NCBI GenBank assembly: GCA_949130485.1
Contig: OX422196.1
Location: 923,388 to 987,387, forward strand
Source of the DNA: Agelas oroides
Lineage: Eukaryota; Porifera; Demospongiae; Agelasida; Agelasidae
Length of the DNA stretch: 64,000 nucleotides
Direction: 5' to 3'
Below are positions 1-26,300 of the stretch, piece by piece. Every line of letters starts with the position of its first letter. Within the stretch, counting starts at the first letter, position 1. Made by a program: the position numbers and the translations under genes. A model generated the notes under the pieces. The model saw only the letters and a list, made by a program, of their open reading frames with translations, had not been told where the DNA came from and did not search any database.

Positions 1-266
1 GAAAACAGTTACTCTGATTTGTCTTGAGTATACTTTCTTTTCCTCCCCATTCCTTGGGCCTTTACAAACTTTGATCTGCTGACAGAGTTAGAGAAGATTT
101 GTCACCTAAAAACTAATTTTCTCCTCCTCAGTCTTCAGAGGACAGGAAGTCCACTGGGGCAGCCCCTGCCATTGTGTCTGATTTCCTGTGTGTTGTCCAT
201 GACTGTGAAGTGCTGTGTCAGCAGGTAAGTCACATGCAAGTCTGCAATGAATGCCTGCCTATTTGT

Positions 267-332
<66 letters not shown>

Positions 333-3300
333 CGTGCATGCGTGCGGCGTGCGTGCGTGCGTGTGTGTCTGTGTGTGTGTGTGTGTGTGTGAGTGAGTGA
401 GTGAGAAGGGGATAACAGTTGCTACCTCTGAATGTGTGTGCAACAGAGATGACACTGCTAGACCACAACTACCCAGTGTGCACCCCCAAACTTAGTATCA
501 GTCTGACACTTTGTGGCAGGAAGGCATCATCCTCTAAGTTTGCCTTCTTTCAAAGTTCAACATTCAAGGTTCAAGGTTCAAGGTTCAAGACTCTCACATG
601 TTTGCTACATGAGCCCCTGGGACATATGCTTACAAAAACGAAATGCAGCTATAATGTCATCTTCCAACATTGTACAGTGCTAGCAGCCTCATTTTCAGCC
701 GTGCTATTGCATTCATTATGTGAGATGTTTCATCGGGTGGGTGTCCTTGAATTGTGTGGTTTTATACACATGCATGTTTTTAGTATTACTGCAGTAATAC
801 TAAAATGGTGTCCACGGGCTAAAAAGTTTATGTGTGCGTAATAGCTACTCAAATAGTTACATGAGAAATACTTGATTCAAATTTGCATATACATGTACAA
901 TAAATGCTATTGGGGGGGGGGGGGAGGGTTGGGGAGACAAATGACAGTTAGTGATTACTTTATTTAGAATGCATAATTATGCAATAATCTAATTGAGCAG
1001 TTTTGGGTAGTGAGTTCTGGGTAGTAAGTGATACTTTGTTGCAAGGTGATGTATTGACAGCTCAGTAACGGACACAAGCCACGGCAATCTGCTCCAGTCT
1101 CCACTCCCAGTTGCTCTTCTTGGTAAAGATATCACAGCCTGTTGTGTAAAGCGCTGGAACAGGATAGGTCACTGTTCTACAACGATATTCTTCAGTGATA
1201 GGACTGGTACATTCTGCATGAAAGAGGTATGGGGGGATTCGTTGGGCGTTGTAGTCGCACACATATTCCCATTGGCAATCGGAATTTCCAAATATCTGGT
1301 TGGAGTGTGCATTGCCACACACTTTATTCTGTGGGTCCATCCTGGAGTGAAAGTTGCTAAGGAATTGTGCAGAGGGTTCATCAAATCTGCCTGGCAAGGT
1401 GACATTCGCACTAATTTGAAGGGAAGGTGGAGTCATATCGAGCTGGTGTTCATAACGACTCATAAACTCACAGAGTGTTGGAGTAGTGCAGTTTCTTTCT
1501 TCAGTTGGTGTGATTTGTGTGCTATTGCCAGTTGAACTCGGCTCAGTTGACATTGGCTCAGTCGAAGTTGGCTCAGCTGAAGTTGGCTCAGTTGGCTGTT
1601 CACTACTTGGGGCACCACACACAGATAGTGCCAGCACTACTCCTACAAGTACCAGTCGCAGGATGATTGCCTGTGGGGATGCACTTGTAGAATAAGGCCT
1701 TCAGATATACATATACTGAAGCCAGCACTCACTAGACACAAATGAGCATGCAGCAGCCTTACAGCTCTAAGCAATCTTATTCACACTACTGGCTCATGCA
1801 TTTGTGCTCTTCCATAGCAGCAATCTATACTAGAATGCACACAAAAGGATGCACTCACTGCTATGCAGCTCTCTGCATACTGGTACTTAGCAGCTCTCTG
1901 TATACTGGTACTTAGCAGCTCTCTGTATACTTGTATACTGTACACTTGTACTTAACATGCATTGTTATATTATGCATGCAGAAATAGCTCGCCTCGTTCG
2001 GTCATTCTAAAGCCACAACTACCAAGTGAAACGTAAACACTATACTTACTATACTATACTATACTGTAGTACTATACTATACTATACTATACTATACTGT
2101 AGTACTATAATTATTTGTAGCAGTTAATTATTCATACCATCGTTGCTTTCACACTTCAAGTTGCTTCTGCAAAGAGATTATAACATACAAGGCTGCAGTA
2201 GTAAATTTCGTGCAGTGTTGTTCTTGAGCTTTGGCTGTTTTTTGTTGTCTCAGACTTGCATCAGCCTACTTTATATAGGCAGCTTGTTCGTTAATGGACA
2301 GGGGGTATTTCTGTTTCACACAAGTCTGCACATCCTCTCTATTCTAAAACTTGTGCAATACTCTGATGCAGACGTGTTAAATGTTGGATGGATAATTGTG
2401 TAGTGAAACTACTATAGTAATGTGTCATGGGTCAGGCATGTGGATAGATGAGTAAAATGTATGGAAAGTGGATCGAATGTAACACCTTCCATTCCCCAAT
2501 GTTGTTATACATTATTGGGAGCAGGAGATGGGAAATATAAACAAATTTCCCCGTTTGTTTGTTTGTTGTTTGTTTACCACCACATGAGTATAGTTGCTTT
2601 TCACCTCCTTGTTGTCTTTTAATCATTATGTGACACGGTAGATCCAAGTTTATTAATAGTAGTGCTATACTCACATCTTTTATCTTATGTTGTTTATGTA
2701 TAAGATTATGCAATTAGTGTATGAATATGCACAGTACTACATGGCTAGGACCCCCCTCCCCACATGCAGCACACATACACCATGGATTAGTGTATGAATA
2801 TGCACAGTACTACATGGCTAGGACCCCCCTCCCCACATGCAGCACACATACACCATGGATTAGTGTATGAATATGCACAGTACTACATGGCTAGGACCCC
2901 CCTCCCCACATGCAGCACACATACACCATGGATTCTCTTCACTTGTGGATATTTTTGAAGTGTCTTAGAAGGGGTTATTGTTCAAACATCATATGACCTG
3001 TTTCACATCACATTGCACGTATGCCAATATGATTTCATCACGGACACTGCATGGGTTGATCTCTATCATCACGGACACTGCATGGGTTGATCTCTATCAT
3101 CAAATTCATCTGAACCTGTAGGCTCACACTGACCCATGATGTAAGCTAAATACACCCATGCTTGGTATGTATCTCCAGTGATCCTATCACTGCATTATCT
3201 TCACCTACTAGCACCACCAAGTCTATAATCAAAAAATTGAAGCAGATTGCTACGTAATCTCGTTCCCAGACCTCTTTCAGTGCGTATATATATCATATAA

Positions 3301-6300
3301 TACTGAAAGCAACCTTCACTGGGGTTGGTTTTGGTCCTTCATGCAACTGAGACTCTACGCTACACAGCCAGTCGCAATGTCTAGGCAAAAGCATCCCATC
3401 TCACAATATGCAACTGGATGGTCAGGATTCTGCCCTGCTGCTGTCACAGGTCTTATACTCTTGAACACCGCTGCAGCTTATTCTGCTTGGAACTTTGCCT
3501 CACATTGGAAATAGACTTGGATGTTTTGAGACAAAAATAGAGACGACAAAAATGAAAAGGCTGGCTCTTACTGGGAATTGAACCCAGGACCCCTGACTTG
3601 AGCTGCCAGTGCTCCAGCCGCTGAGCTACAACAACCAGACAACCACTAGCCTCACAATGCGAGTGGCTGCTAGGTGTGTGACTGAGGCACTCAGTATCAA
3701 TTGTGCAGTACATATAGAGGATTGTGAAGGCTGGTGGTTGTCTGGTTGTCATAGCTCAGTGGCAGAGCACTGGCAGCTCAAGAAGCTTATTGCTTTGATT
3801 GTGTCATATTATGTTTAGACAGTGCATCTTTCATCTAGATCTTCCATCAGCTAGCTATATCATCAGAGTATGGAGATAACATACACTTTGCATACTAATT
3901 TAGACTGCAATTGTATATACAACAGTGAACAATCATGTATAAGGAGGCATAAATATAATAGTTACTACATCTCTAAAAGCTAGTCAAATATGCAATACAG
4001 TGGACAATCATGTATCAGGAGACATAACTACATCTTATTACACTAACACCACAATTATGATGCAAAAGAATGGTTCTGTAATGTATTGTCCATCTTGTTT
4101 CAGTCGCACTTCAAACTGCAGGTACAGGAGACAGGAACCTCTTCAAGTCTCCATGACCATATGGCATCTTGGATTGAGAATGGGTTACAGTTCTGTGTGT
4201 TGCTATCCAGCGTCAGCACTGGGATTTTGTAGTAGACAGGCGTGCATTCGTAATAGGTGTTTCTACAGTCACCACGTGTTCCTGTTAGTCCTGGTGGAGG
4301 AAGGCTATGTGAGCAGTCAGCGTGCCACAGGTACTGTGGGATCCTGTTTCGATTGTAGTCAGATGTGTAGTTCCAGGAACAGATTGGTATACCTTCAGGC
4401 ACGTCTGGCAGTGTAAGGTTGCAGCCATTAACAAGGCTTGAGTTACACATATCTGGGATCTCCTTGTACAGTATAACATTTCCATGGAAAAACCTGTATG
4501 TGTCTACGTTGTTCAGAAGGTCACCAAGTGTTGCATTGACTGCAAGATGAAGTTTCGTGTTGCTGTCTTTTACAGTGCTATGGACTGTAAAATCAGATAC
4601 TGGAGAACATGACAGATCGCCCATCAGAGGACATGCACTGCTTTTCACTATGATATTAAGCACAAACAACGCTACTACGATAAACACCATTTTGTGGGAT
4701 GTCGGTTTAAACTGGTTCTTTGTTACGAGTCTCTCTTGGCTGTGCTGCAGATTTGTAGTTAATGGCTTATATACCAATTTTAATCGAGGGACCCCTATAT
4801 TTCACCACAGTGGAAGGCAACCATAGCAGGATACCATTATGGAAGTTGCACCCCGTTTGTTGAAGGGGTTAGAGGGTTGGTATTACCTAGTCCAGTGTCT
4901 AGGAACTGATAACGACAAGTGTGTGTCCCCCACAGCAGAAGAAAATATTGATGAGCCAGATTACCAGTTGTTTTGTCTGTTTACATAATATTATTTTCAG
5001 TATAAATGTATATCCTCACATTACATCACACGAGATTATACACTTTTAATGGCCCTTTGGGGGAGATGCAGCACCTCTGCAATACTTAACACACTATCAG
5101 TGGAGGAAGTGAATTGGTAGAATATTATCATCTATTTGTGTTAACAAAAACTAGTCTTATCTACTTGTAACAAGTTTAGGAATACTTCCTTTCCCCCTTG
5201 CCATGTCACTGCACTGTGATGTCATGGAGGGCCTGGGTTCTAACCTATTTTAGAAGTTACACCACCAGCAAAGACTATTTCACCTCAAAGTCTTGAGCAG
5301 GAAAAAAAAACTTCAAAAAGGGCTGGTGGCAAGCTCTTGGGATCAAAGCTATCACTCTGTGCCCGCATAAAGCTTCTCTGGGGCAAGTATACCCACACAA
5401 TTCAGTTCAGAGTAATACACTGTTTGCTATTGAATGTTGGTGTACAACTTGGCAATTATTGCCAGCTTTTTTTTTATGATACTCATCGCGATGTGCAGCC
5501 GTTTTGGCCACACATCTTGGTGGTGCTCTGTGGTAGCAGAAAGTTCTCTCTCTGCATGTTAGCTAACATACAACACCCAGTTAGCTACTGCATTAGGTAT
5601 TTTGTTGTTGCTGTTGTTGTTTTTGGTTTGTTTGTTTTGTTTTCTAGTGACACTATGAATATCATCAAAGGCTATGAATATTGCTGCGTTAAATACAAAA
5701 TGGGGCGTGGTCCGCGCTCCAAACGCGCGATAACTCGCAGTGCTCAATCGCACCTGACTGCGGCTACAAAAGATGGAGCACAGATAGAGAAGCACTTCAT
5801 GGGTATACACGGCCAGAAGGAATAGGCTACCTTGTACGAGCGGTCTTTTATGGACGGTCAAATTTTGAAAACTTTTGAACCAAAATCTGACCGTCCAAGC
5901 AACTGAAAGCGACGAACGATACTCTAGATCGACAGTTTTCAACGTACTCGAGGGCCAGACGGAGCGTTTTGCTGCAAACGTTGTTCGGTTTTTGAGAGAA
6001 ATAGCCCGTTGTCCAGTAAAACTGTACACACCTCACGACTTTACGCCTCGGTAAAATTACGACAGCCAACGATATTCAAAAAATGGCTCCGTCAGGCCCT
6101 GCATTGTCCATCGTTATTTTAGGTTCATACTCGACAGCACTACAGTTCAAAGTCCATGGAGAGTCGTCGTGCGCATGCGCAGTTGAACGTTACGAACAAA
6201 GTAGCTCCTCAACTCGACGCTTGCAAAATTTGGTTTGCCTTGCCTTAGATATATATATCAAGAGCACATTATGCGCTCTTGATATGTATATGCCCTGGAT

Positions 6301-9300
6301 GTCGTAGCGAAACAGTTTTATCGCCGGACTACGCTCGCTTGTTCACAGAACCATAGATAATAGAGTGACTCTACTATCAGAGAACCGAATGTGTCTTATC
6401 ATGGCGTACGGTAGTACGCCATATGTAGGGATGACCCCGAAAAAAAATGGCCGCCACATTAAAAGTGCACAAATAACACGCTCGAAATGTCTTCGTTAGA
6501 TTAGTCAAAGGCCTGTATGAGCTATATCAGGCATTATCGAGTGTTTTCATGAGCAAAAAGACTGTTAAGTTTGCTGGAAAGTATCGCTAAGCACCAGACC
6601 GGCAAGTCGCCAAAACGGACAAATCGTCTATCTTCTGACTTTCTTCTTCTTCTTCTTCTTCTTCTTCTTCTTCTTCTGCCTTTCACCGCGATAGCACGAT
6701 AACGGCTGGAGCTTTTACAACGATTCAAACGCAAAACAACAGGATAAATCACTAAGTATTGCACCTGCCACTTATCGGTCTAAAAGAAAGAACTCAAACT
6801 TGTCGGCGATTCTCAGGTAATCTCACACTTACGCTAGCTGCTACACGCCATTTTGCTTGAATTAAATATTACTCATAATTACGTCACCAGGGTTCAACTG
6901 AGCACGTGGTTCAGTACTTCGTAGTACAGAGAAGGTGAGAATTGAGTGTTGCAGTTTGCAAATCTGATTTCGTGGATCAGTTGACGTGGTTGTGCTGCAC
7001 TTTACATCGAACGCAATATGCATAATGTCCGCAAGAAACGAGCGCAGGACAAGCAGAACTACCTGCGAAACAAAGGGGAATAAAAGGCAAGCGTCCCGTA
7101 ATAATTACTGGAAGGACCCGGAGAAACACAGGGCATCTTCCCGGGCGTCCTCCTATGCCTGTTATTGGAAGGACCCTGAGACGAAAAGGGCGTCCTCCCA
7201 TGCCTGTTATTGGAAGGACCCTGAGACGAAAAGGGCGTCCTCCCATACCCGTTATTGGAAGGACCCTGAGACGAAAAGGGCGTCCTCCCATGCCCGTTAT
7301 TGGAAGGACCCTGAGACGAAAAGGGCGTCCTCCCATGCCTGTTATTGGAAGGACCCTGAGACGAAAAGGGCGTCCTCCCATACCCGTTATTGGGAGGACC
7401 CTGAGACCAAAAGGGCATCTTCCAGGGCATCCTCCCATACCCGTTATTGGGAGGACCCTGAGAAAGGAAGGGCAGCTTCCCGCATATCCTCCCATACCCG
7501 CTATTGGGAGGACCCTGAGAAAGGAAGGGCAGCTTCCCGCATATCCTCCCATAGTAGTTATTGGAGGAACCCTGACAAAAAAAGGGCAGCAGCTCGTATG
7601 ACTAATTTGAAGGCTGCAAAAGCCAAGCTCAAGTGGTATAGACGGTACTATGCCAGCTAGTGTTTTAACCATCAAGTACTTCATATGACTTAGAACACTA
7701 GCCACTGATATTCAATTTCAAGTTTTATTGTCAACTTTCACATTTCAAATTTGCTTGTTATAGTCATTTACATGCATATAGTGCACATACAATGTTTACT
7801 GCGAGTTGATGGTAGCACTTTGGCTGGTGTCTTCTTAACATCCTCCTTTTGTGTTGTGCCTGAGTCTTCATATTCTTCCAACGAAGCAAGTGGCAGCCTA
7901 TTGGTAGCTTGGTATACTCAAACTCTAGTAGCACCGAGTCAACAGTGCATGGCTTCATTCCAAACTTCTGCACTAGATGTGGCCACAGAACTGGCAGTTG
8001 TTCAGCTCCACAGACCCCTATGCGTTCGTTTCAAACCCATTTAGACTATAGCTACTCACCATGCATCAAACAGTTCTGTAATGGGGTCTTACGACTCAAT
8101 ACTCTGGTGACAGTCTATGGAGGGTTTTTCGGTGAACCCATTAGTAGTCCACGTGAAATGAGCACAGGATTTATAAGCTTGCATGCAAAGCCTTATTAAA
8201 CTCATCTGCTTTTCACTTGGTTTTTATGAGGCTTTGCTTGGACTGTACTTCTAAACCCCCCGAAGTTTGATGTTTGGATTGACGATTTCACTTCAAAGCG
8301 TTTGAATTTATGACAATTCTTAGCTCTTTCTACTATCATACTGTACACACCATGCATCTTCCCCTCGGCCTACCCTCCCATGTCACTTCTGTCTTACCAT
8401 TCCTAAAAAGCAATACAAAAAAAAAAAAAAGAGCAGGAACAAGTCACAAAAAAGTTTTCTGAATGAAAACAAGTGCATGTAGGGATGGAACCCTCAAAAA
8501 CCAACCAAACTAGATGGGAATGACACCACAACAATTTCACACCATCCCTACATCTTGTGCCATTTTGCCAACTATGCACACCAGTAAACTCTCTAGCCTA
8601 TTCACACCCACTAAATGAATACTAGCTGTAGTTAGCGCTGCTCATTCCACAGCCTTTTACATAAAGACAATCCATATCTGCCATGTTCAGCAGCAATAAA
8701 ATTTCACAACATAACTTACTCCAACAGACCCAGCTCATGCACTCGACAGTTTCTGCATTCAAGACTAGTCTCACAAGCCAGACCCTTTCCGTTCCACAGT
8801 GCAGATCGCTTTCAGTATCGGCACGCAGAGGAAGGCACTAAGAATCGTCATAAATGCTTTGAAGTGAAATTGTAAATCCAAACATCAAACTTCTTCCCTC
8901 TGTGTGCCACATACTGAAAGTGATCAGTGCTGCGCAGAAAGGGTCTGGCTTGCAAGACTAATTCAAGACAGACCATACCTGCCATTCTCAGCATAGCAAC
9001 TACATCACAGCCACCCACAACATAACTCACCCCCCATGCACATCAACATGCACTCCACACCCAGCACTACCCATCCCACTGCCTTCCACAACCCTCCTAT
9101 GAACACAACTAACAAACACAAAGCATAGTTGGCAAAATGGCACAAGATGTAGGGATGGTGTGAAATTGTTGTGGTGTCATTCCCATCTAGTTTGGTTGGT
9201 TTTTGAGGGTTCCATCCCTACATGCACTTGTTTTCATTCAGAAAACTTTTTTGTGACTTTTATATTACACCCCAAGATGGGACCTGCGTAATAATATAAT

Positions 9301-12300
9301 ATAAATAATACGCAGGCCAGAGGAAGCGTTGGACATCCAATCTGAGTTGATATTAATTCGTTAATGGCATGGTGCACTTACCCCATGAATGAAACTTTGG
9401 TACACCAACAACTCTCCCTTCACCAGCTACACCACTGTCACCCCTCACAGCGAAGCGCTTACATGACGTCACACGTTCAATATACCTACGTATAAAATCA
9501 TTGCTACGTGTATTGAGCGCGCTACTGTGCTTCGGGCTAATATTATGCATGTAACGCGCGAGTATAAAGCAGGTGAAGGCGTGCCTTTGTTGATAAACTG
9601 ATGTCTGGCTCCTCCCTTGGGGGTATTAAAAGCTTTTTTAAGAAACCACAAAACTCTGAACTCTAAGCCTTTCTACTTCAGGTCTTGTAGCTAAGTAGCA
9701 CCTAAGCCTACTAACAAAGATTTCACCTATGTATAGCACTGAACTCTAAAGTGTTCGAGCCAAGGTAAACCTGCAGCACTAACCTCCTATGAACATCTTT
9801 GTTACTTTGCTCATACATACCATAGATAATCTACGCTACGTAATGTTACGTAGTCGCCGCGCAGCACGTCTCGGACTTTTATGACAGTGGTGTCTTGTGA
9901 TTGTGACAATATACTTTTATTATGCATGTGGTAAAAAAATAATTAAGCTTATACAGCAGTAGCTACTAATACAGTCCTGCTGTCTAAATCTCACTACGCA
10001 CCCCAAGTTGCTCAAAGTAATATTCCTATGGTGCGGGGATGGTTTAAAATGAAATGAAATTATAGTTATATAACATAAAATAGGAAGAAACTTTACAATT
10101 CATTTGCCGCCTGGAGCTGGCCCAATACATTTGCACCCCTCGGTGACGACCGTAGGCTGGCAGAACCATTCTCCTCTCGGGAGACCCTGCCCACTGCTCT
10201 CTTCGACTACCGGTAGCCTGTGGGTCATGAGAGTCTTCGGATCATATTCCCGAGGTCTGGCTATAGCATTTTGTTGAGATGCAAGTTCGTCCTGATCGTA
10301 ATACTTCAGTATCAGGACTCGTTTCTCAACTGACACGCAGTCTCCTACAACTTTTTTGCCGTCAACCATCCTGTCGGTGTAGCAGTATGCATTGGTGCAC
10401 GTTGTAGAGATCATGACGGCTGGGAAGCGGTTCGGATCAAAGGAACAGTGGTACTTAACGCGACAGTCGCCTCTTGCATAGGGGGATTGTGCCTCAAGGT
10501 TTGCCACGTATTGTTTGCAGATTTCCATCGCCTCTGACTCACTGGAAAAATTCGCATTCCAAAGTGCAAATGCACTGGAGTTTAGTTGGTCGAATACCAT
10601 GGTCATCAGCCGTTGTCGGTCCCATATTGCTGCGAGGGGTGGGTCGACGCTTTCGGAAGAAACGGTGGTCGGCTTCACCGCTTGTAGCGTGCTGTCCTTC
10701 GAATTCGAACTCAGCGATGTGGGCGCGGACAGTACGCTTCCTGTATCAGCAAAAATAAGGAGTAGTAGAACAAGAAGGGATAGCATGCTTAGCGATAAAG
10801 CCAGCTGGGTTTCTTCTGCCGTTACTGATCTAGAAACAAAACGCTGGCCATACGCCCGGAATGGAAACTGAAAATAGATGTGATGCACAAGGGGATTTCC
10901 ATTTAAATTAAGACATCAGACATCAGTGCAATGGACAATGGCTCGTCTATTTATTCATTTATTTTTTTCTATGCCTTCTATGCCACAGATACCTTTGCTG
11001 TTTCATGATGTTATTCGACCAAACTTACCAGTCTTGACTCTAAGAAATCCAAGTATTATGGAAGGTATATCACAGTAGCTGAGTATATCAGTCTATAGCC
11101 TCGTTTCCAGGCCTTCTGCAAGAGAGCGGCCATGAAGCCCCCCATATCAGGAGCTTCAGGTTAATTCTTGACGCTCATGATCAGTTGGGATATATTTGGC
11201 ACAAGCCTTGCTTGGTGACCATCAATATTTATCTGTGTTGCATCACAGGCAATGCTCACAGGCAACGCTGGACAAATCCTAGTTATAGCTTTAGAACCTT
11301 CTTCAACTTCTTCTGTACTGTAGTTTATATAACCTTTTGCTACGTCTAGAACATGCGGTCATATTGTGCAAACTAGAGGAAGGAAATTTGATGCATGCAG
11401 ACTGGATTCTTACCATCATACTGAGACATAGGCTATGATATCATATATGCTCTTCTGTACAGAGAGTCTGAAGGAAACCACAAGCCAACTCAAAGAGCTA
11501 ATTCCAAAATGTGCAACATGTATTGTCGGCAAAATTTCTCAACACTGTATCCAGAATCTTGAACCTGCACACACCATTCCAAGACTATATCGCAGGACTA
11601 ATCGAGAGGTACATAAGCTATATAGTTCTCAATTTTCTGATGATGTTAGTATTTTCTGTTGGCTTTAATTTAGCCTTATATGGGTCTACCTCAGCTTTGA
11701 TACCAAAATAGTCAGTTTCCTGGTAGGTCACTGGTTTGGAGTTCAGTAAAACCGTGCATTAACGGTTTGTCGTGTGTAGGAGTTCGCAACACAGTCTCAG
11801 TGTCTATATAAACATGTTATGTTGACAGCATTGTACACTTTTCCTCCTAGAAAGCTATGCCTTCAATATAAACACATCATTATATGTTATCCTCATAACA
11901 TGAACTATGCAATGATGCATGCACTTATTTCAAGCTTCATGCACCATTGAATGCAGGCTTGTTCTTGTCTAGGTACCCCAAAAGCCATCAAGTTATGTTG
12001 GTAATATTCTACGACCATTGCTAGGAATTCTGGAGGAACTCCCTGATCAGTACAGGAAGGAATGGAGTTGCAATATCATTGAAGCAGTCAGTGAGAGGTA
12101 TCTCGGGGATTCCTTATTGGTCTCTAAAATATTTTAAGCATGCTATCATATTGGGGCCTTCCCAACACCAGGATAGACATTCTATTAACTTCCTTCTCTT
12201 TTCCTTGATGAAATTGTTTATACATACAGATACTTTGAGATCACTTCTGAGGTCCTGACGTCTGTCAAACGAACCGAAGACAGCTTACTGAAGCTCAAGA

Positions 12301-23022: not shown

Positions 23023-23319
23023 AATATCATATGGAGCCATGGTGACTGCTGCCAGCTTCCGTTTCTTCTCTGAACTTGCCGGGTGCTTGTACCTCAGTTT
23101 GTCCATCTACACCAATACTAGGAGATGACTGCTACCTGCTTTTCTGAATTTGCAGGGTGCTCGTCCCTCAGTGCAGTAGTTACCGTCTGGATAGCATCCA
23201 TCAGTTTTTGACAGAGGTGGCACAGGAAAACGTTCTGCTCGCCTGGAAAGAGCTATTGCTGCTTTTGCAGCAGCTGCCCGAGAGCAACGCGACAAGGAGG
23301 GCAGTGACAAGCGTGAGTC

Positions 23320-23388
<69 letters not shown>

Positions 23389-26300
23389 CCTTCGATAGAG
23401 CCTCCTTTATCTTCAGACTTTTCCCTGCAGGCCTTTGTGCAACAGGTAGTGAAACAGCTGTATGGTACAGATCTAAAGTACCTCCAGAGTGAGGGGGAAG
23501 GAACCGATTCCCCAGACCAGAACCAGACTGAGACTGAGAAAGAGGCTGCATCACATTCCAGAACTAATGGTCTGTCCTCTTCAGGGGAGTGTCATAGAAC
23601 CAAGCCACCAGAGAACAGGGTACACTCGAATTTAACCCCACTTCTGGCCGCACTTGAAACAAAAAACGCTTTCTATCTCATCTACCCTTACGCAAGATTC
23701 ACTTTGTTTGATATCACCATTCATAGTCCAGCCATGTTTGACGACTCCGTTGCAAAGGTTCTGTTTGTCATTTACCAGCTGCTGAAGCTGTTGGACCACT
23801 GCCACAGTAAGGGAGTCACTTTGGGGGAGCTGAGTTTGAAGAATATTTTTGTCGACACCAGACTCTGGGTCCAACTGAGGCTACCCCCCTCAGTCATTTG
23901 TGATGGTGAGTCACACGAAGAGAGTGTCGAGGAAGAAGAAGAAAGTAGCACCCCCGTCGAGGGTGAAGAAAGTGTAGCTGCAGACACCAAGCTTCCTGTC
24001 TCCATTCCTCCAGAGCTACCCAGCCCACAATCCATTCCAGCTGCTTCAACAGCAGCTCTCACAGATGCAACCCAAAGCTCTGTCTCTGCTGTTACCACGA
24101 CTACTGACAAACTGGTGTGTAATTCTCTCAGTTACACTCCACCTGCCCTCCATCTTGCAGAGGCGGTAGAGAAATGGCGTAGGGGATATCTTAGCAATTT
24201 TGACTATTTGATGGTGCTGAACTATCACGCAGGTCGGCATCTTGGTGATCCCAACAATCACCCCATGTTTCCCTGGGTGATGGACTTTACACATAGCAAC
24301 GGTGGATACCGGGACTTCTCAAAATCCAAACACCGCATCACAAAGGGAGACAGACAACTTGACTTCACCTACCTCTCTGCCCAGGAAGAAATTCGACTTG
24401 TCCCCGATCAAGATGCTCTCGTTCCCCACCACATCGGTGATGTCTCATCCGACATAACTTACTATGTCTACCTAGCTCGGAGGACACCCAAGGAGGTTCT
24501 CTGCGCTCACGTTCGTCCGAGGTGGGTCCCGGAAGAGTATCCCTCTTCCATCGAGAAGATGTACATTTGGTCTCCAGACGAGTGCATCCCGGAGTATTTT
24601 GTCGATCCTAACGTTTTCAAGTCAATCCATCCCGACCTGCCAGATTTAGAAGTTCCCTCTTGGTGTAGCTCCCCCGAAGAGCTGATTAGTGTCCACCGGG
24701 CCGTTCTGGAGGGAGAAATAGTGTCCTCCCATCTTCACAACTGGATTGATTTAGTCTTTGGCTACAAACTTTCCGGCGAGGCTGCCTCCCGAGCAAAAAA
24801 CGTCCACCTTTCTCTCGTTGACAAGCACAAGAATCCAACCAATTATGGAATCGTGCAGCTGTTTCGGTCTGCACATCCGAAACGTATCCAGACCACCGGT
24901 GCACCTCTAGCTCTCTTTGATTGGCACTCATACCTTAACATGAGCAGCATCATGAACGTCAACGAGTTCTCTGCCGAGCAGCTGCAAGACAGGGGGATAA
25001 CTGAGTCTGCCGCAGCCGAGCAGCACCAGTCTCGTGACTCCAAAACCCTAGACATGATTTTAAGTTGCCAGACAGTCACCCCCAGTGACAAGGTATCGCT
25101 GAAGACTGATGCAGATGGGCACCTTGGTAACCATGACAACACTGAGGATGAGATGTATGGGTCTTATGAGTATGTGAACTATCCGGATGAGGTTACTGGG
25201 GGAAAACCCTTGCGTCCTGCCAAATCAGGCCTTCCTAATGCTGACATCAGGATTGACTATGGGGAAGTCCCCATAGCACTTACATCACCCAGCAAGCCTA
25301 GTACAGTCACTGCCTCTCAGCAGAAGGAAAGTATTGTGCTTTCAGCGTCACAATCCAGCCGCTTTCGATCGGTTCCAGTCGTGAACTATATCTTTCCTTT
25401 CCGGCAGCGCAAGTCCAACATGACTGACCTCCCAGGTGAGGGCCCAGAGGGACAGAGTGCGGACGTGTCTTTTCCCAAGGACTCCAAGTTGCTGCAGCAG
25501 CTGGGAAGGTTGGAAGAACTCACACACTTTGTAAACAGGTCTTGCAAGGATGACGGAGGCATCTTCAAGGACCAGTGGAAGCCAGAAGACCTCCCTCTGT
25601 TCAAAGTGAGCCATCTTTGTACATAGTATCATTACTTCATCATTACATCATATTTAAATGTTGTGTGACATCACCATATCAAGAGTGCATGATGATGTCA
25701 TTTTTTTCCCCTCCGCAATGAAAATGACGTCATCATGCGCTCTTGACCATATACATTCATATTTATAGGCCACACTCTCCCTATGACCTTGCACTTTTGA
25801 CCTTTGCACTTTACCTTGGACTCTGTGCTGTCTATCTCTCTCCCATTAGTCTTCTCAAAAGGCGTTTCCAGGCCGGTCGGTGCTCGATGTGCTCCAGAAA
25901 CAACAAGAAAACCCATCCTTCTACCCCTCCTTTGAGGAGCGAGTGAGCATTGACATCACGGCTGTCGTGTGCACAGTGATTGAGATGTGTTGTGTCAGAC
26001 ACCTGAGGGCTGCCATGCCGACCAATGCTGGTCTGCTCGAGAGAGTATCAACCATTAGGAGACTACTACAACGGCTACACCTACCCTCGTGAGTTACACG
26101 TACAGAGAAACCTGTCTATATTGTTGAGTAATGTTTTATCGTCTGGTTTCTTATGGTTGCTATGAGACAAGTGTTTTTATTGGCTCTTGTATAGACACGT
26201 TGCACACTTCTCCCGAGCTTTTCAGCACATTGAGCACCCGGCTTCTCCCTAGCTTTTCAGTCACATTGAGCACCCAGCTTCTCCCTAGCTTTTCAGTCAC

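Follow-up and report, generated by a model that had tools for sequence, protein, structure and literature searches.

Within a 64,000-nucleotide stretch of DNA (the window) on contig 14 of the 259.3-Mb, 141-contig assembly of the sponge Agelas oroides, we analysed three genes, here called P1, P2 and P3, which lie in a single intron of the plus-strand gene COG2 and are encoded on the opposite strand. We consider it very likely that they encode secreted, dimer-forming cystine-knot cytokines of the interleukin-17 (IL-17) type, probably bound by receptors with a SEFIR domain, and that their nesting in COG2 is incidental. An earlier sequence-only reading of the window had proposed three IL-17-like open reading frames (ORFs) antisense in one COG2 intron. 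Positions and minus strand were confirmed, with the COG2_C match and the splice sites in agreement, and the IL-17-like assignment is supported by the IL17 profile, the fold of P2 and P3, the sponge host and SEFIR genes of the same genome.

Part of COG2 occupies the first 11 kb of the window. The open pieces flanking the intron, when joined, matched the Pfam family PF12022 (COG2_C) with E 2.3e-53, and the intron, 10,764 bases long and in phase 0, has codon boundaries on both sides. The layout is as follows.

132-224, plus strand: COG2 exon on the 5' side of the host intron (COG2_C match of the joined pieces; splice sites read).
225-10988, plus strand: COG2 intron in which P1, P2 and P3 lie antisense (donor CAG/GTAAGT, acceptor CCACAG/ATA).
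10989-11064, plus strand: next COG2 exon, 3' end approximate (frame continues IPLLFHDVIRPNLPVLTLRNPSIMEG; within the COG2_C match).
2138-2140, minus strand: putative P1 exon 1, a lone start codon (followed by a GTATG donor; yields MAIILRLVLVGVVLALSVCGA, a signal-peptide-like start).
1671-2137, minus strand: putative P1 intron of 467 bases (GTATGA ... CCCCACAG).
1062-1670, minus strand: P1 main exon (exon 2), coding for an IL-17-like, secreted-type protein (PF06083 match, relatives).
4100-4690, minus strand: P2, IL-17 family cytokine, single exon (PF06083 match, IL-17 fold, relatives).
10100-10786, minus strand: single-exon gene P3, coding for a secreted-type, IL-17-like protein that has an insert of about 40 residues (PF06083 match, IL-17 fold).

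The frames of P2 and P3 are each uninterrupted and open with a hydrophobic stretch. P1 as first listed starts at the ATG at 1553 and lacks a signal peptide. Its frame stays open upstream of this internal ATG as far as a splice acceptor, CCCCACAG/GCA, and this added part contains a hydrophobic start. A start codon at 2138-2140, directly before GTATG, completes the model and gives the protein start MAIILRLVLVGVVLALSVCGA. Our best P1 model, which we infer from these signals, hence consists of an ATG-only exon (2138-2140), an intron (1671-2137) and the exon 1062-1670. The sequence-only reading had ascribed signal peptides to all three ORFs; hydrophobic starts that may represent them are visible by eye in each of the gene models, but not in the P1 ORF as listed.

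In searches against Pfam, PF06083 (IL17; curated cut-off 24 bits) was the sole family at E<=10 for each of the three ORFs. P2 reached 50.1 bits (E 3.8e-13), above the cut-off, and is clearly a member of the IL-17 family. P1 (1062-1553) and P3 each reached 23.2 bits (E 9.2e-5 and 9.1e-5), so that the expected profile match was found for all three proteins, with P2 alone above the curated cut-off. The family alignment drew on 29 proteins, four of which were dropped (P0001, which is the window's own, and the partial P0020, P0026 and P0027). All 28 aligned members match the IL17 profile at E<=1, among them 8/8 P1-type and 5/5 P3-type rows; a precomputed PF06083 assignment is present for the P3-type relatives P0002 and P0015 and for none of the P1-type relatives. 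Compared directly, P1 and P2 align with E 2e-14 (two-sequence BLASTP), while a joint profile of the three types, run against solved structures, found IL-17A, IL-17F and IL-25 alone at E<=0.01 (best E 2.2e-7). As judged from such profile comparisons, P1 and P3 show a likeness to the IL-17 family that goes beyond chance. No other family gave a better match, as the sequence-only reading would have it, the exception being P1, which weakly resembles venom NGF among solved structures. Since P1 does not have the full set of knot cysteines, we file it as IL-17-like and not as a full member.

C104, C126 and C189 (P2 numbering) are present in 28/28 alignment rows and C149 in 24/28; C191 is found in 20/28, and the eight rows without it are exactly the P1 type. 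P2 has C126, C189 and C191 in place, and its Cys 142 lies in the right loop, unaligned with the human one. In P3, C130, C135, C218 and C220 correspond to the four knot cysteines and are invariant in the P3 type; C130 and C135 align with two IL-17F cysteines, and their C-x(4)-C spacing is exactly that of IL-17F. P3 also carries the insert of about 40 residues ahead of the last strand. The sequence-only reading had given all three proteins one motif order closing with x-C-x-C, and the C-x-C is indeed there in P2 and P3, but P1 ends in VACVRY, and in 8/8 P1-type rows an Arg takes the place of the second Cys of C-x-C. The same rows have no Cys in the loop following A-x-C. In vertebrate IL-17s, this loop Cys and the second Cys of C-x-C pair to form one whole disulfide. 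HMMER aligns C104 with the Ser before P-W of human IL-17A and C149 with its Ser of N-S-V-P. At the place of two chordate serines, invertebrate IL-17s form an additional, third disulfide of the knot (Huang et al. 2015, PMC4517768; this and the other papers are cited from excerpts of their text), a difference termed CPW/SPW (Saco et al. 2021, PMC8353272). The core Y...D-x-N-x-x-R-I-P...A-x-C resembles motif 1 in the excerpt of Huang et al. (PMC4517768). By their aligned residues, the sponge proteins are of the invertebrate six-cysteine type, which is therefore likely to be ancestral.

For P2 and P3, AlphaFold models were made. As the sequence-only reading would lead one to expect, the fold comparison ranked IL-17A, IL-17F and IL-25 first for both models, and P2 and P3 are accordingly predicted to have the IL-17 cystine-knot fold.

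Relatives of the three genes were compared with the window's own copies across other assemblies, and this set was also the scope of the tree. P1 has seven relatives and P2 has 14, the latter at 30-89% identity; the P1-type proteins are 78-87% identical to the window's P1 and the P3-type proteins 54-88% identical to its P3, both with full open frames and invariant cysteines. P1-type and P3-type sequences form supported groups (100/99 and 100/100); P2-type sequences were not one clean clade, and a program warning pointed to long branches coming together. A recent tandem burst, which we considered, is rejected by this grouping of each gene with its own relatives. The description 'tandemly expanded' in the sequence-only reading hence calls for caution, as the paralogues differ greatly from each other, have their own relatives elsewhere and do not represent a recent expansion. 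For the relatives P0005 (P2-type) and P0008 (P1-type), the longest contig is 5863 in both, which suggests that P1 and P2 remain linked in relatives. Searches for relatives in viral contigs and genome contigs gave no confirmed case.

Does the genome hold further members? We searched the whole 259-Mb assembly with the IL17 family, with P1, P2 and P3 and with two relatives and found no fourth intact IL-17 gene; all other matches had E-values of 0.06 or above. Within the reach of this exon-by-exon search, the intact IL-17 genes of the genome are all located in the COG2 intron. On contig 13 (L005:1501-1644, from 964901), we observed a 146-base piece that is 84% identical to P3 (window 10226-10371); as its open frame spans just 28 residues, it is probably a relic copy.

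Receptor-type genes, which the sequence-only reading had suggested looking for, are present in the same genome. The search with SEFIR (PF08357; cut-off 23 bits) pointed to five places. A gene on contig 15 (L016), open over 666 residues, combines a signal-peptide-like start, a fibronectin-III (fn3)-like ectodomain, a transmembrane segment before the SEFIR domain (hydropathy peak 3.03) and a SEFIR match of 28.5 bits. Its fn3 match scores 20.3 bits, below the cut-off of 25. The gene has 17 relatives at E<=1.6e-155, ten of which were aligned with it, and fn3 and SEFIR each match 11/11 rows of this alignment at E<=0.1. On contig 7, three exons coding for a transmembrane segment plus SEFIR follow each other in about 8.4 kb; two came from the search and the third from reading the sequence, and one exceeds the SEFIR cut-off by hmmscan (31.1 bits).

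L014:4386-8924 and L013:1003-1995, contig 7: transmembrane-SEFIR receptor-type genes, three in tandem, with 26-46% mutual identity over the aligned parts.

On contigs 12 and 5, a SEFIR exon is followed by a Death-domain exon (E 7e-8 and 3.3e-14), and the two exons of each pair may join into one protein. In total, the genome has four transmembrane-SEFIR receptor-type genes, one of them full-length and conserved; in two further SEFIR genes, a Death exon lies close by.

We also examined the mitochondrial contig 141 (22,436 bases), found by a COX1 search and containing TGA within the cox1 frame. It encodes atp9 (ATP-synt_C, E 3.9e-13) and 23 tRNAs found by ARAGORN (6, 16 and 1 in three stretches), among them two arginine tRNAs including trnR(ucu), and trnG and trnV are adjacent.

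L023:4641-5777, contig 141: LAGLIDADG homing endonuclease, encoded by an intron that interrupts cox1 near nt 726 (LAGLIEGDG and LAGFLDADG motifs; the sponge/coral '723' site).

Coral mitochondrial DNA is not known to carry atp9 or this tRNA set. In demosponges, the excerpt of PMC2444032 reports atp9 in all species studied except Amphimedon queenslandica, trnR(ucu), the order rns-trnG-trnV-rnl, 24-25 tRNAs and TGA read as Trp; Homoscleromorpha are there counted among demosponges, and these features thus cover them too. The same source places a cox1 intron with the same motifs at the same site in two sponges and also in stony corals (PMC2444032), and the '723' intron occurs in several demosponge orders and Homoscleromorpha (PMC5360047, excerpt). 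Because corals share it, the intron is no sufficient marker of the host; the atp9 gene and the set of tRNAs are, and they identify a sponge, most likely a demosponge. The sponge host to which the sequence-only reading had tied the significance of the three genes is thereby given by the atp9, trnR(ucu) and cox1 intron of contig 141. A second COX1-like match, devoid of TGA codons, was noticed on contig 107 (L021, 16176-16808); it may come from a bacterial symbiont or from some other organism included in the assembly.

We infer secretion, dimerisation, receptor binding, joining of the adaptor exons, downstream signalling, an immune role and a nesting without special function. P1, P2 and P3 would each be made with a signal peptide, fold into the IL-17 knot and be secreted as dimers. 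Outside the cell, their binding partners would be single-pass receptors carrying SEFIR on the cytoplasmic side, four of which are encoded and of which the full-length gene alone shows a fibronectin-III ectodomain. Such receptors may recruit a cytosolic SEFIR plus Death adaptor, for which the genome offers two candidates, and the adaptor might set off NF-kB/TRAF-type signalling upon injury or contact with microbes.

Several results weigh against this interpretation. P1 and P3 both lie 0.8 bit below the PF06083 cut-off; with its upstream part (1062-1670), P1 falls to 22.5 bits and also shows the meaningless-looking family New_glue (E 0.014). Taken alone, the P2-type profile reaches solved IL-25 weakly (E 0.0055) and the P3-type profile solved IL-17F weakly (E 0.051), whereas the only match of P1 to the PDB at E<=10 is venom NGF (E 0.46), likewise alone for the P1-type profile at E<=0.1 (E 0.048), with no IL-17. 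P3 and P2 are joined unconvincingly by BLASTP (E 0.047), and the P3 family meets P2 weakly by profile (hhalign, probability 44%, E 2.3e-4). All eight P1-type rows are without the second Cys of C-x-C. The AlphaFold models were made from alignments mixing the three types and are middling (mean predicted local distance difference test scores of 60.8 and 65.3), all Z were below 8, and for P2 no Foldseek E-value fell below 1e-3. On the receptor side, IL17R_D_N touched 1/11 rows (E 0.098), the contig 15 protein had no IL-17 receptor match by sequence in the PDB, two of the contig 7 exons scored 21.8 and 21.4 by hmmscan, below the SEFIR cut-off of 23, and two fnIII-looking exons upstream of the contig 7 receptors matched no Pfam family.

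Some of these points could be accommodated by another family of cystine-knot growth factors (NGF-, Trunk/PTTH- or Noggin-like) that shares the knot geometry, with the SEFIR receptors serving other ligands. Venom NGF as the only PDB match of P1 and of the P1-type profile fits such a view, and so do the PTTH-Torso complex at Foldseek rank 8 for P2, the BMP-Noggin complexes at ranks 49-50 for P3 and the Torso FN3 model, which is touched by 6/11 receptor rows (best E 0.0057). But PF06083 as sole Pfam family for each ORF, the joint profile that reached IL-17s exclusively, the core resembling the excerpted motif 1 (PMC4517768) and the receptor-type SEFIR genes make this highly improbable; other knot families were rejected as first choice on the Pfam and joint-profile results, with P1 remaining the weakest of the three. 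A less remote, though still unlikely, alternative is that P2 is a working IL-17, while P1 and P3 are degenerate or re-purposed, for example as decoys or structural secreted proteins, and have no cytokine function. The incomplete C-x-C of the P1 type, the long insert of P3 and its 18% identity to P2 would agree with this, but both types are conserved families with full open frames and invariant cysteines, and the two cysteines lost from the P1 type make up one disulfide, so that a paired loss and not decay would be indicated.

That the ORFs are chance or transposon-derived frames and not genes might be suspected in an intron with tandem repeats, a perfect 137-nt inverted repeat and a repeat-coding ORF; we regard it as practically negligible and rejected it in view of the profile E-values and the conserved relatives in other assemblies, to which signal-peptide-like starts and conserved cysteines add. 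Finally, the antisense position might itself matter, with the IL-17 cluster and COG2 transcription regulating each other, as all three genes, and with them the entire detected intact set, lie opposite COG2 in one long intron. Animal genomes often contain nested genes, and the linkage hint from P0005 and P0008 says nothing about COG2, which leaves such mutual regulation improbable. P1, P2 and P3 are probably independent antisense units, and we retain IL-17-type cytokines with incidental nesting as the preferred interpretation.

The same COG2 intron holds a plus-strand ORF (7025-7660) of repeats of about 15 residues (YWKDPETKRASS...), with a match to Pfam DUF7215 (E 5.5e-8). The perfect 137-nt inverted repeat (8441-8577 and 9123-9259, 545 nt between) looks like a young non-autonomous DNA transposon. 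Further along the window, 23317-25626 on the plus strand is a BEACH-domain gene (E 4.8e-38; weak kinase match too), which we take to be WDR81-like.

The IL-17 family itself is known already; what is new are members in a phylum where it was thought to be missing, not a new kind of system. In the excerpted text, Huang et al. (2015, PMC4517768) report no IL-17 in Amphimedon, Hydra, Nematostella and Trichoplax and place the origin in nematodes, while Saco et al. (2021, PMC8353272) found none in Amphimedon and Hydra and name Cnidaria as the earliest phylum. The latter excerpt also mentions an Amphimedon queenslandica Pfam entry, A0A1X7VXB1, with an IL17 domain at 359-442, the gene for which its authors could not find in the genome. 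Among the titles and beginnings of abstracts listed in our searches of the open-licence PMC literature, we found no description of an IL-17 ligand in a sponge. SEFIR domains have been noted in two of three ctenophores (PMC11797021, excerpt) and in the sponge Dysidea avara (PMC12909245, excerpt). With three IL-17-type ligands in a sponge, alongside SEFIR receptor-type genes and SEFIR-plus-Death genes, an origin before the split between sponges and other animals becomes likely, and our data suggest that this signalling route is older than the published surveys concluded. On balance, we think it probable that the common ancestor of sponges and other animals had a complete IL-17 axis of ligands, SEFIR receptors and SEFIR-Death adaptors with an ancestral six-cysteine knot, and that in this demosponge all of the detectable ligand set was kept as three anciently diverged genes in the COG2 intron. 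As outgroup sequences with six cysteines, the sponge proteins could help to trace the loss of a disulfide from the chordate knot. The host is a simple animal that has neither nerves nor lymphocytes, and the first role of IL-17 signalling could be tested in it directly.

Compared with human IL-17A, IL-17F and IL-25, P1-P3 are alike in being small, secreted-type proteins with C/S-x-W/V-x-Y ... D-x-N-x-x-R-I/F-P ... x-x-C, with the IL17 profile match and, in P2 and P3, the C-x-C and the predicted IL-17 fold. They differ in the C-x-C missing from the P1 type, the long insert of the P3 type and the sponge host, and as a group they have two extra knot cysteines where IL-17A has Ser. This third disulfide pair is shared with the invertebrate six-cysteine IL-17s and sets them apart from chordates, as far as the excerpts go (PMC4517768, PMC8353272). 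A0A1X7VXB1 of Amphimedon is likewise an IL17 domain in a sponge, but there the domain begins at residue 359 of a longer protein, a comparison made by description (PMC8353272). Of the fnIII-transmembrane-SEFIR organisation of IL-17 receptors, the contig 15 gene has fn3-like, transmembrane and SEFIR parts, while its ectodomain is without a significant match to IL-17 receptor models. In vertebrates, Act1 has an architecture that differs from a SEFIR plus Death pairing. The contig 12 and 5 genes, with putatively joined SEFIR and Death exons, resemble not Act1 but the placozoan SEFIR-Death protein that was compared with CIKS and MyD88 (PMC6321704, excerpt).

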